Assembly: GCA_028708215.1 (NCBI GenBank) | Contig: JAQVZL010000009.1 | Location: forward strand, 1-40,932 | Direction: 5' to 3' | Source of the DNA: Bacteroidales bacterium | Lineage (GTDB): Bacteria > Bacteroidota > Bacteroidia > Bacteroidales > UBA932 | DNA: 40,932 nucleotides | Shown here: positions 5,303 to 36,804 of the stretch, one piece after another | How the letters are laid out: each line of letters opens with the position of its first letter | How positions within the stretch are numbered: the first letter of the stretch is position 1 | The notes under the pieces: model-generated | Database searches by the model: none | What the model was told of the DNA's origin: nothing | What the model saw: the letters and a program-made list of their open reading frames with translations, nothing else | Translations under genes and position numbers: made by a program

Positions 5303-6181
5303 ATGATTAAGAGAATTAAAAGTGTACAAAACTATTTAGCAATGGTTAAGTTCGCTCACACTCTTTTTGCTTTACCTTTTGCTCTTGTTGGTTTTGTTTT
5401 AGCTCTTACTATCTCTAAGGCGAGTTTTTCAATACCCCTATTATTTCTTGTACTTGTAGCTATGGTATCGGCAAGAAATGCTGCTATGGGTTTTAATAGA
5501 TATGTAGATAGAGATATAGATAGTTTAAACCCTAGAACAAAAGAGAGAGAAATTCCATCTGGGAAGATCTCTGCCATAGCTGCTCTTAGATTTGTTATTA
5601 TTAACTCATTAATATTTCTTACAGCTGCATGGTTCATTAATCTATTGAGTTTTGTGCTAGCCTTTCCAACTCTTTTAGTTTTGCTCGGATACAGCTATTT
5701 TAAGCGCTTTAGTGCGCTAAGTCACTATGTTCTTGGCGCTGCACTCTCTATTGCGCCAACAGGGGCTTATATTGCAGTTTCAGGCACATTCCACATAGCT
5801 CCAGTTGTTCTATCTATATTAGTTTTATTTTGGGTTAGTGGTTTTGATATTATCTACTCTCTTGGCGATGAAAAATTTGATAAAGAGAATTCGCTTCACT
5901 CAATACCTCAGTTGGTAGGAACTAAAAAAGCTTTAATAATCTCTTCAGTTAGTCACTGTTTGGTGCTTCCAATGTTGGTTATGTTTTACCTTTCAGTAGA
6001 AGACCTAGGTGTTATTTACATAGTAGGTGCTATAATATTCTCACTATTACTATTATGGCAGCATCTTATTATTTCGTCTAAAGATCTTTCTAAAATTAAT
6101 GCAGCTTTTTTCACAGCAAACGGTATAGCTTCTATAATTTTTGCCCTCTTCACAATTGTAGGCCTACTTACTGCTCACTAA
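5303..6181 (+). CDS. UbiA-family polyprenyltransferase, possibly MqnP of menaquinone synthesis
   Basis: Integral membrane enzyme that attaches a prenyl chain to an aromatic acid. The 292-residue protein has about 8-9 hydrophobic segments and both Asp-rich Mg-diphosphate motifs: NRYVDRDIDSLNPRT (first) and YSLGDEKFDKE (second). The opening MVKFAHTLFALPFALVGF is the pattern I associate with the UbiA/MqnP branch rather than MenA, the prenyltransferase of the classical menaquinone route. If it is MqnP, the organism would use the futalosine pathway, but no other mqn gene is in the window. Substrate is therefore inferred. The gene follows pheT by 51 bases and is the last before a 414-base gene-free region. 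Confidence 0.85.
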   Translation: MIKRIKSVQNYLAMVKFAHTLFALPFALVGFVLALTISKASFSIPLLFLVLVAMVSARNAAMGFNRYVDRDIDSLNPRTKEREIPSGKISAIAALRFVIINSLIFLTAAWFINLLSFVLAFPTLLVLLGYSYFKRFSALSHYVLGAALSIAPTGAYIAVSGTFHIAPVVLSILVLFWVSGFDIIYSLGDEKFDKENSLHSIPQLVGTKKALIISSVSHCLVLPMLVMFYLSVEDLGVIYIVGAIIFSLLLLWQHLIISSKDLSKINAAFFTANGIASIIFALFTIVGLLTAH

Positions 6182-6197
6182 ATTTCCCCACCTAGTA

Positions 6198-6261
6198 GCT
6201 CTGCTCACACCACTTCATTTAATTAGCTGAAAAAGGGATGTTGCTTTATGTTGAGCAGAGC
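6198..6261. repeat. 10-bp perfect inverted repeat, 44-base spacer
   Basis: GCTCTGCTCA at 6198-6207 is the exact reverse complement of TGAGCAGAGC at 6252-6261. It lies 16 bases after the prenyltransferase stop and its right arm runs into palindromic copy 1. No T-tract follows, so it is not an obvious terminator; it may belong to the repeat element. Confidence 0.6.
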
Positions 6262-6410
6262 AAAGCAAACTTTGCCAGGAGATGATTACACGTAAACGCC
6301 TAACAGGTAGGTATTTAATTTTTCTAAATGAGCTCAAAAGGGCTTATTTTCAAAAGCTAACTACCATGTAATTAGCAACTTGTGTCCAATCATCTCCTGA
6401 GATAAAGTTT
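6255..6410 (+). repeat. Structured palindromic repeat element, copy 1
   Basis: A 156-base imperfect palindrome matching copy 2 at 34897-35050. The outer stem is CAGGAGATGATT (6276-6287) with AATCATCTCCTG (6388-6399), extended outward by AAACTTT/AAAGTTT (6267-6273, 6404-6410). The inner stem GGTATTTAA... with ...CTAACTACC leads to an apical hairpin, AAATGAGCT/GGCTTATTT around a CAAAAG loop (6326-6349). A 26-base block (6341-6366) and a 15-base block (6277-6291) are identical in copy 2. There is no ORF inside. It could be a MITE-like non-autonomous element, a REP/BIME-type repeat or a structured RNA. Confidence 0.85.
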
Positions 6411-6442
6411 CCCACCCAGTAACTAGATAATAATTAATAAAA

Positions 6443-6465
6443 TTGCTTCGCAGGAAGAGGGTGCC
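6443..6465 (+). repeat. Short shared module, copy A
   Basis: A 23-base segment starting TTGCTTCGCAGGAAG and ending GGTGCC matches 34811-34833 at 20 of 23 positions by eye. Here it lies 32 bases to the right of palindromic copy 1; in the other region the related segment lies to the left of copy 2. Confidence 0.7.
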
Positions 6466-6595: not shown

Positions 6596-7882
<1,287 letters not shown>

Positions 7883-34287: not shown

Positions 34288-34695
34288 TTATTCTGTACAA
34301 GAGTCAATGTTACTAGAGCCACATAATGTGCATATAGGGCTAGCTATGTGTAAATAGTTATTAAAAGAGGCTTCGCACTCCTTACAATAGTACCAATCGC
34401 TATCTAGAAAAACTCTCCCTCCTTCAAATACAATTCCTTTGCCCTCTGTAAAGGCTTTGGCAACTTTCTTTCTAGCGTGAGCATAAATTCGTGTAAATGT
34501 TGGTCTAGATATACCCATTACCAGAGAAGCCTCTTCTTGGCTCATAGACTCATAATCACACAATCTAATAGCTTCATACTCTTCTAAGTTTATGATTACT
34601 AGTGAGTGCTGTTTGTTTTTTTTAAAGTCTATTGGAGTATACCCTTTAATCAAAGGATGGGTGTCTATTCTTCTTAAATTTTTGGGCCTAGCCAT
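34288..34695 (-). CDS. DUF134 family predicted DNA-binding protein
   Basis: A 135-residue protein. The N-terminal part matches DUF134: LEEYEAIRLCDYESMSQEEASLVMGISRPTFTRIYAHARKKVAKAFTEGK, which contains a sigma-70 region-4-like helix-turn-helix. The C-terminal part is a zinc-ribbon-like unit (YYCKECEAS ... CTLCGSSN). It is the first gene of the DUF134-NifX-Mrp series and the probable regulator of it. A short inverted repeat lies in its promoter (34727-34738), which could be its own operator. No target has been shown. Confidence 0.9.
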   Translation of the reverse strand: MARPKNLRRIDTHPLIKGYTPIDFKKNKQHSLVIINLEEYEAIRLCDYESMSQEEASLVMGISRPTFTRIYAHARKKVAKAFTEGKGIVFEGGRVFLDSDWYYCKECEASFNNYLHIASPICTLCGSSNIDSCTE

Positions 34696-34805: not shown

Positions 34806-34915
34806 AAAGTTTGCTTCGTAGAAAGAAGGTGCCTTGCGGCGGTTGTTTACTGCTGCGCAGGGGGCATCCACTGGCTTATGTAACTTGCAAAGCAAAGCAG
34901 AGCAGAGCAAACTTT
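34806..34915 (+). repeat. Nested inverted repeats with GC-rich hairpin and shared module copy B
   Basis: AAAGTTTGCT (34806-34815) is the exact reverse complement of AGCAAACTTT (34906-34915). Inside, GGTGCC (34828-34833) can pair with GGCATC (34863-34868) and GCGGCGG (34836-34842) with CTGCTGC (34850-34856), using G-T pairs; this core is far richer in G+C than the surroundings. Bases 34811-34833 match 6443-6465 at 20 of 23 positions. It could be a structured RNA or part of a composite repeat. Confidence 0.6.
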
Positions 34916-35050
34916 ACTAGGAGATGATTACACATAAATATCTAGTAGACAGGTATTTAGTTTTTTTAAATGAGCCCAAAAAGGCTTATTTTCAAAAGCT
35001 AACTACCACACAGTAAATAAGTTATGAGTAATCATCTCCTGGAAAATTGT
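34897..35050 (+). repeat. Structured palindromic repeat element, copy 2
   Basis: A 154-base imperfect palindrome in the same orientation as copy 1 (6255-6410). The outer stem is AGGAGATGATTAC (34919-34931) with GTAATCATCTCCT (35028-35040), a perfect 13 bp extended inward by CATAA/TTATG after one mismatch. The apical hairpin is AAATGAGCC/GGCTTATTT around CAAAAA. The block 34983-35008 is identical to copy 1. The 3' outermost arm is less well kept than in copy 1. Confidence 0.85.
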
Positions 35051-35148
35051 CTCCTAGGGAAAAATCAGATGAATTATCAGGTAAAATGTTTGCAACCAAC
35101 TTTAGTTCTTGGAAAAAATCTGATGGATAGTTAAACTGAGATTTGAGG

Positions 35149-36804
35149 TTATTTTGCAGTTATTAAATAGTATTTACTAATTTTTCTAACATTAGGTTTC
35201 CCTAAATTTGTTGGACCTAAATTTAAATCTAAAGTACCTAACTCTTCTATGTTATATTGTGCACTTATTAATTGATCTTCTCTTAGCTTATTATCTAAAG
35301 GTGCAAGGAGAATAAAAGCTTGTTTGTTAGGAAAACCTATTTGTGAAGAATCTTTATTAATGATTGGAATTTTATATCCAAAATGCCAGATGGTTTCAGG
35401 AGGTACATAGTTATAGCCATAGAGATCTAACCCTCTTTCTGCAGCAAACATTTTTAGGGGGGTAAAAGGGGTGTCATTGTAGCTGGTCAAACTCTTTGAA
35501 AACGTAAGAGACAAACCAGATAGCATAACTCCAAACAGGAAAACTGTAAGAAAAAAAACCTTTTTTATTTCTCTTTTTTTAAGTTGAACTGTAATAAATA
35601 TACCACTCAAAAGAAGTATTATAGATGTAGCTATATAGTATGCCCAATTGCCAGAGAGATGGTCTTTAAGAAAAATATAGCTTACTACAGGAAGTAAGAT
35701 ACCTATAGCTGCAATTAGTCCAAAGTTAAAGAGAACAGGCAATCTCTCCTTTATTTTGCTAAACTCTTTAAATTTACGAAAGAGATACTCTATGTAAAAT
35801 CCAGTATTTATAGCAAGTGGTATTAGTACTGGCATAAGATATCTAGATTTTTTTTCGGGAACAATTGAGAGTAAAATTACTGCCAATAGTGTCCACAGTA
35901 AGCTAAATTGATAGGCTTTTAAATTGACAACTCTCTTTTTTAGATATGGATAAAGCAAGCTAATAAAGGCTGGTATGCTCCATAGACCACTTTGAAAGAA
36001 AAAACTCCAGTAATAATAGAAGGGTTTAACATTGTAGTTAGACCAATTAGAGGTCTCTCCTTGAGCTATCTCTAAGAACACATTTAGATCTTTTATGCGT
36101 ACATATAGGTACCACCATGCACTAAGTATAAGAGCTAATAAAATTGTTACCAGCAGAGGGGTAGCTTTAGCTTTTAACCTGCTGAATTTGTAAGTAAAAC
36201 CATAAGCTATTAAAAAAGGGAGAAGCAACGCATAAAGAGAAACTGGCCCTTTGCTCATAAAAGAAGCTCCTATAAATAGAGAGGCTATTATACCATTTTT
36301 CCAACTACCACTATTGGTTTTCAGTAGTAAGAAAAGATAGTAGATAGCTACTAACATAAAGCCATGGGCAAATATATCCCAAGGAGCCTCAATTATTATT
36401 CCAAAGGTATAAAATGAGGTGATGGCAATTAAGGCATTGATAAGACTATGTTGCCTGTTTTTTAGTATTTTATTAGAGATTAGATAGACAAAGACTCCAA
36501 TTACCATAACAAGTAGTAGTGCAGGTGCTCTTAGCGCAAGAAGCTTTTTGCTACCAAAAGCAAGACCAGAAAAAGCCGTTAGCCAGGTAGGAAGAGGGGG
36601 CTTTTCATAACGTGGCTCTCCATTCATTGTGGTGAGCAACCAATTGCCATCTGTTACCATTTCACGAGCTGTAATGAAGTTGCGAGCTTCCATTATGCTC
36701 ACCTCTATGGTAGAGATAAGAGGCAATAACATAATGGCTGTAAATATGCAAATGGTTAAAATTGGTTTTCGTTCAAGGGTTTTTATTAAACTGGGCATTC
36801 CCAT
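35149..36804 (-). CDS. GT39-family (ArnT/PMT-like) membrane glycosyltransferase
   Basis: Integral membrane enzyme that moves a sugar from a polyprenyl-phosphate carrier to a periplasmic acceptor such as lipid A or protein. 551 residues with about 12-13 hydrophobic segments. The first periplasmic loop carries the family signature: EVSIMEARNFITAREMVTDG and GEPRYEKPPLPTWLTAFSGLAFG; in ArnT the first part reads D-E-A-R, here M-E-A-R, so one acidic residue is gone. A later loop reads PEKKSRYLMPVLIPLAI, also typical. It is divergent from the GT2-LAB_N-epimerase operon, which probably makes and flips its donor. Acceptor and sugar are not known. Confidence 0.88.
   Translation of the reverse strand: MGMPSLIKTLERKPILTICIFTAIMLLPLISTIEVSIMEARNFITAREMVTDGNWLLTTMNGEPRYEKPPLPTWLTAFSGLAFGSKKLLALRAPALLLVMVIGVFVYLISNKILKNRQHSLINALIAITSFYTFGIIIEAPWDIFAHGFMLVAIYYLFLLLKTNSGSWKNGIIASLFIGASFMSKGPVSLYALLLPFLIAYGFTYKFSRLKAKATPLLVTILLALILSAWWYLYVRIKDLNVFLEIAQGETSNWSNYNVKPFYYYWSFFFQSGLWSIPAFISLLYPYLKKRVVNLKAYQFSLLWTLLAVILLSIVPEKKSRYLMPVLIPLAINTGFYIEYLFRKFKEFSKIKERLPVLFNFGLIAAIGILLPVVSYIFLKDHLSGNWAYYIATSIILLLSGIFITVQLKKREIKKVFFLTVFLFGVMLSGLSLTFSKSLTSYNDTPFTPLKMFAAERGLDLYGYNYVPPETIWHFGYKIPIINKDSSQIGFPNKQAFILLAPLDNKLREDQLISAQYNIEELGTLDLNLGPTNLGKPNVRKISKYYLITAK

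Follow-up and report, generated by a model that had tools for sequence, protein, structure and literature searches.

The palindromic repeat that occurs twice in the window, the whole stretch of 40,932 nucleotides analysed here, is probably a REPIN-like element of 121 nt that lies, in its own genome, mostly within a second mobile element, a MITE (probability roughly 0.78). A REPIN is a non-autonomous hairpin made of two inverted REP-like arms and a spacer of fixed length, and a RAYT, a REP-associated tyrosine transposase of the HUH type, would copy it in the form of single-stranded DNA. Most of the cores in the own genome would sit inside a MITE of 250-640 bp with CTAAAGTTTCCCAC ends, which a transposase acting in trans would excise and insert so that 7 bp of the target are duplicated, in many cases immediately beside a REPIN. 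The initial annotation had proposed a non-autonomous mobile element, either a MITE or a REP/BIME-like sequence. Both halves of that proposal apply, with a REPIN/BIME-like, RAYT-linked core placed inside a MITE that makes 7-bp duplications.

The two copies form the top repeat pair of the window (6254-6412 and 34896-35054), with 79% identity over 159 nt. The identical blocks of 26 bases (6341-6366 and 34983-35008) and 15 bases (6277-6291 and 34919-34933) reported at the outset were found exactly as claimed when the sequence was read directly. The placement in gene-free DNA was also borne out and each copy is intergenic. Copy 1 is flanked by a UbiA gene (5303-6181, plus strand) and an enolase gene (6596-7867, minus strand), and copy 2 by a PMT_2 gene (35149-36804, minus strand) and a DUF134 gene (34288-34695, minus strand). 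The pair had been described as two copies of an element of about 155 nt. The pair is real but the number two is an effect of the window, as around 40 copies occur in the genome, and the true core is 121 nt, with the surplus bases forming part of a larger second repeat that surrounds it. The features of the two copies were as follows.

6178 to 6193, plus strand: outer left MITE end of copy 1, CTAAATTTCCCCACCT, with two mismatches to CTAAAGTTTCCCACCT
6203 to 6276, plus strand: left MITE module of copy 1, ...ACCACTTCATTTAATTAGCTGAAAAAGGGATGTTGCTTTATGTTGAGCAGAGCAAAGCAAACTTTGCC
6277 to 6397, plus strand: core copy 1, REPIN-like, 121 nt, inverted arms AGGAGATGATT and AATCATCTCC, spacer with inner hairpins
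6402 to 6417, plus strand: second MITE end of copy 1, ATAAAGTTTCCCACCC, right behind the core and in direct orientation
34882 to 34918, plus strand: left MITE module of copy 2, truncated, AACTTGCAAAGCAAAGCAGAGCAGAGCAAACTTTACT
34919 to 35039, plus strand: core copy 2, REPIN-like, 121 nt, same family as copy 1
35040 to 35105, plus strand: right MITE module of copy 2, GGAAAATTGTCTCCTAGGGAAAAATCAGATGAATTATCAGGTAAAATGTTTGCAAC...ACTTTAGT, with the right end truncated

The outer left MITE end of copy 1 overlaps the UbiA stop codon. The left module of copy 1 recurs in about a dozen other copies, with its position and orientation unchanged. At 6402-6417 an inverted right end would be expected, but the MITE end there is a rearranged or nested one. 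Both window copies are adjoined by a third dispersed repeat (TTTGCTTCGTAGAAAGAAGGTGCCTTGCGGCGGTTGTTTACTGCTGCGCAG), at 34807-34860 and 6444-6465. It was also present in L018, L027 and L032, and a fragment of it lies upstream of the RAYT gene (L094:929-980).

The own genome is a 1.9 Mb draft of 112 contigs with a completeness of 90%, and the window is contig 37. A search of the complete draft, which the initial annotation had suggested, gave 54 rows with copy 1 as query. Some of these rows were the palindrome matched on the opposite strand and the rows correspond to around 40 places, comprising 32 full-length copies and about eight truncated ones. This number refutes a chance match or a family of two copies only, and no known insertion sequence end explains the match, so neither objection foreseen for the mobile element holds. 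The length was exactly 121 nt in 28 of the 32 full-length copies, with almost no insertions or deletions. In the alignment of these 32 copies the unit begins with AGGAGATGATT and finishes with AATCATCTCC, and identity was 98-99% in the arms and ends compared to 85% in the middle. The arm was matched 91 times in the own genome compared to about 16 matches by chance (reversed control). A count of these matches by hand gave 29 inverted arm pairs with the full spacing and two with a shortened one. All but one of the 32 cores were free of overlap with open reading frames (ORFs) of at least 90 amino acids. Where both neighbouring genes were known, 14 sites were convergent, 10 tandem and 4 divergent. 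A protein-coding core (frame ATG ATT ACA AGT...) was rejected, as the changes between copies, judged by eye, mostly alter the frame.

The core has the characteristics of a REPIN: conserved inverted ends, a spacer that varies more in sequence but hardly in length, doublets in preference to singlets, and dispersed, extragenic copies. The canonical REP tag GTAG/GTGG at the hairpin foot is absent and the core ends are AGGAG. This excludes a canonical REP but leaves room for a REPIN more broadly defined, because RAYT subclass 2.6 of the Bacteroidetes was reported to be tagless too (PMC6006769). No match to the core was found by blastn against 60 relatives, 24 of them of the same genus. The exact two-arm pattern had six matches in the GTDB genome set (from which the own record is possibly absent), all in unrelated taxa and taken as chance, and a wide distribution of the core was rejected on this result. 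Two further elements were observed beside core copies. In L009 (C78:24140-24230) the junction of core and right module is interrupted by an inserted element of about 90 bp with a short duplication, which provides an internal comparison of a filled and an empty site. In L025 (C42:28637-28756, minus strand) a second REPIN-like element of 120 nt with different ends (CGGGTAGGCATTGATGTAACC) lies beside the core copy, within the same MITE.

As the core had no blastn match in relatives, a covariance model was built from it and run over the own genome and the genus. Such a scan, and a search for a RAYT, had been recommended with the initial annotation; the model led to RAYT transposase genes, and the own genome proved to hold one RAYT ORF, on contig C84, with an in-register relative of the core upstream. 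This relative is a diverged 121-nt element (C84:19240-19360, E 2.5e-7), apparently single-copy, and lies upstream of the genome's sole Y1_Tnp/RAYT ORF at a distance of about 80 bp. In an ungapped comparison with the core consensus, 64 of 121 positions (53%) were identical, compared to 33.7 ± 4.9 in 5000 shuffles with a maximum of 54. The outer 5 nt of the relative are CTACC compared to AGGAG in the core. The Y1_Tnp match of the ORF (E 1.9e-4) was just under the curated cut-off, and its sole NCBIfam match was REP-associated tyrosine transposase (NF047646, E 1.6e-8), below the equivalog cut-off. The ORF keeps the HUH motif NHFH and the Y of YILSNA in the catalytic region. A PDB search with a single RAYT query gave no match, and the top match of a RAYT profile was TnpArep 4er8 with a non-significant E value of 0.51.

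RAYTs and REPIN-like elements are associated across the genus. PF01797 was present in 22 of the 25 genus genomes. At 46 RAYT loci the flanks were searched for an element of 80-155 bp with long inverted arms, located at most 350 bp from the RAYT. Such an element flanked 28 of the 46 loci, and 18 loci had none at the threshold used. Of 420 control windows taken from these genomes, 1 contained one (Fisher p 1e-31). The arm of this single control match is the same as that of L117, a RAYT-flanking element in its own genome. Arms differ among the RAYTs. All 17 loci with elements on both sides share the arm sequence across the two sides. In sibling G014 a match to the core model abuts another RAYT gene and a second copy is located on the opposite side of that gene. 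In the complete genome G011, the arm CCTCAGAGGWAAAGTGTCAAA, which belongs to one of the RAYTs, was matched 28 times, in 14 inverted pairs that are mostly 83 bp apart; two of these pairs are around the RAYT and the remainder are dispersed. The same arm had 42 matches in G007 and the reversed-pattern control had none. Judged by sequence, these dispersed, arm-specific pairs of G011 and G007 are REPIN populations. The RAYTs of the genus have the motifs NHxH and YI[LI]xNP, with F or C at the W position, in open frames of 196-401 amino acids. The literature, together with the association in the genus, suggests that a RAYT would catalyse REPIN copying here too.

The cognate RAYT of the core may be the diverged gene on C84 or may be missing from the draft. 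A sub-case of the REPIN-in-MITE reading, and not exclusive of it, is that the RAYT has been lost and that the REPIN persists through the MITE while it slowly decays. This has a realistic chance of being correct, somewhat below even. No RAYT with AGGAGATGATT arms at its flanks was found in the own draft (90% complete, 112 contigs) or in the model search of the genus. Full-length copies were about 78-87% identical to copy 1, which suggests that they are not recent, and truncated copies are present. The constant length of 121 nt and the near-invariant arms speak against long neutral decay, and the absence of a gene from an incomplete draft is weak evidence.

The core is flanked by left and right modules in a fixed order, which terminate in inverted CTAAAGTTTCCCACC. 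This MITE end had 61 matches in the own genome (at most two mismatches) compared to 3 for the reversed control, and was also found in siblings, for example G011, G024, G007 and G020. Pairing of the ends gave 89 candidate units, many of which are spurious as the match was permissive. Exact target duplications of 7 bp were found six times compared to 0.1 expected, and none were found at 8-10 bp. Its terminal inverted repeats (CTAAAGTTTCCCAC) and the constant length of the target duplication give this element the characteristics of a MITE. Three of the exact duplications surround units of the own genome that bear a core.

L011/L103: 7-bp duplication ATATTCT, unit contains a core
L039/L082: 7-bp duplication TTAACCT, unit contains an internally deleted core
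L009/L084: 7-bp duplication TTAATAT, unit contains a core

In siblings, 10 of 11 MITEs contained an inverted-arm element, and in 8 of 11 an inverted-arm element started at most 15 bp outside one end, compared to 0 of 600 random windows. By these two counts, the MITE carries REPINs and appears to use REPIN edges as insertion sites. Because modules are shared between copies and three duplications enclose cores, the hairpin has probably spread in the own genome largely as MITE cargo, which would be the main route of the core there.

The fixed duplication length suggests that the MITE is moved by a DDE-type transposase. No transposase with the ends of the MITE was found in a search of the own genome for the DDE_Tnp_1 and IS1595 families, both of which were absent from the incomplete draft. 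An autonomous partner of the IS4/IS5 type or the IS1595 type in the own genome was accordingly rejected. A 2-kb unit of G011 was also considered as the autonomous parent and was rejected. It contains an IS3-like transposase with other ends, and is a nested insertion sequence, as its conserved boundary (TGTGCCGTCCTGAAATAGG...) sits within the MITE when copies are compared. Four copies of an IS3-like transposase with identical protein were found (G011:C1:799458, 1413082, 1449008 and 2172704), at least one of them nested in a MITE, and the element is probably a recently active insertion sequence. A palindromic repeat (GGGATTACCTCGCTAAAGCTCGGTGATCCC) is common to the own genome and siblings, in the right flank of L018 and in the flanks of L209 and L211 (G011 and G024), and a 554-bp MITE of G011 sits inside it. 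The left modules of L007, L009, L012, L033 and L039 contain runs of variable length of the 7-base motif GCTNTTA, as in TTAGCTGTTAGCTGTTAGC.

It is possible, though less likely than not, that two unrelated mobile systems have become coupled in the genus, with a MITE making 7-bp duplications having evolved both insertion at REPIN edges and REPIN cargo. A second transposition route that does not rely on the RAYT would then be available to REPIN populations, and these could outlive it.

In a rival reading, the entire unit of 250-640 bp would be just a single MITE family with an internal palindrome. The core would then not be separately mobile and the likeness to the RAYT flank would be structural convergence. 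Most cores do share left and right modules in one orientation, and exact 7-bp duplications enclose three core-bearing units. We nevertheless consider this reading unlikely. The RAYT-adjacent relative is in register with the core over 121 nt, far beyond the shuffles, and some cores are without modules (L015:793-913 and L037). Sibling MITEs with the same ends hold quite different REPINs, and no core was seen in L076 of the own genome, a unit of 249 bp with both ends.

The alternative of a repeated structured RNA, also raised by the initial annotation, received little support. Copy 1 had a predicted folding energy of -38.7 kcal/mol (z -6.1) and copy 2 of -46.2 kcal/mol (z -10.2), both compared to dinucleotide shuffles. 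The predicted folds differ, copy 1 being a clover with separate inner hairpins and copy 2 a single long hairpin. On the 32-copy alignment the clover fold paired 92.3% of cells and the long-hairpin fold paired fewer (81.1%). Two-sided changes in the clover numbered 20 compared to 11.3 in shuffles, and 0 of 500 shuffles were as high, a surplus that the relatedness of copies can inflate. The clover fold and this surplus also count in favour of the REPIN reading. Covariation was modest and limited to the inner hairpins, and the covariation term of RNAalifold was only -0.17. The outer helix is nearly invariant, which says little on pairing and more on end recognition. No Rfam family was matched at gathering score in the whole window. 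A lax Rfam search of four core/MITE loci gave one eukaryotic microRNA family, a spurious match with 34.7 bits compared to a cut-off of 139.7 bits. The strong folding of both window copies, the surplus of two-sided changes in the inner hairpins and the preference for convergent 3' ends (14 sites compared to 4 divergent ones, p 0.03) would suit a dispersed regulator, terminator or 3'-end processing element with its function kept at each site, but this is very improbable given that no Rfam family reached gathering score, that the outer arms hardly covary and are conserved, as recognition ends would be, and that the blastn and GTDB results above indicate no site conserved between species.

REPIN-RAYT systems, Bacteroidetes RAYTs with atypical flanks and the insertion of insertion sequences into REPs are already known. 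To our knowledge, novelty lies in the core family, in RAYTs with F or C for W and with YI[LI]xNP, and in a MITE that targets REPIN edges and has REPIN cargo. The coupling of MITE and REPIN was not found in the open literature searched, a limited search that included few subscription journals. REPINs are usually described as dependent on a RAYT from the same genome, and REPINs riding in a MITE that targets REPIN edges would be a second route of spread. The persistence of REPINs without a RAYT becomes testable through genome comparison. A genus with many RAYT-arm pairs (46 loci) is a natural data set for arm recognition without a GTAG tag, and the nested REPIN and MITE are an example of two mobile-DNA systems building on each other. 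The result explains the repeat and offers a tractable comparative system, and stays within known kinds of element.

The BIMEs of enterobacteria are mosaic and intergenic and consist of inverted REP-like units. The core repeats are like them in all three respects. They differ in having no tandem alternation of short REPs, and their mosaicism comes from MITE nesting. Preferential insertion at REP-type palindromes is known from ISPpu9, ISPsy8, ISRm22 and other insertion sequences (Tobes & Pareja 2006, PMC1525189) and is similar to what was found in the sibling MITEs with an inverted-arm element close to one end (8 of 11). Unlike those insertion sequences, the inserter here is a MITE, which is short, duplicates 7 bp of its target and has REPINs inside.

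The core resembles the REPINs described with their RAYT transposases (Bertels & Rainey 2011, PMC3116915) in its highly conserved inverted ends, constant spacer, predominance of doublets, extragenic location and hairpin or 'clover' folds. The clover of copy 1 and the long hairpin of copy 2 recall the two REPIN folds discussed there. A matching element also stands beside RAYT genes, and sibling RAYTs bear the arms of dispersed copies on both sides. In contrast to those REPINs, no short REP hairpin with an adjoining GTAG/GTGG tag is seen in the arms, the elements at RAYT flanks measure 80-155 bp and have arms that reach about 31 nt, copies number in the tens and not the hundreds, and the cognate RAYT of the own genome is a candidate. 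The TnpAREP subclass 2.6, or Bertels group 5 (Quentin et al. 2018, PMC6006769), is reported mostly from Bacteroidetes. Membership of the host in Bacteroidota, as suggested by the initial annotation, would fit this. The subclass is described as flanked by secondary structures that are atypical, lack the GT[AG]G tag and have further copies in the genome, and its published motifs are WQ and YIH[QN]NP with a median length of 179 amino acids. The RAYTs of the genus are likened to this subclass by motifs and description, not by phylogeny, as they have NHxH, YIxxNP and atypical flanks. They differ from it in the F or C in place of W, in the length of their frames (196-401 amino acids) and in YI[LI]xNP, for which the RAYT of the own genome has YILSNA. 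The account of Quentin et al. is the nearest published description of the system.
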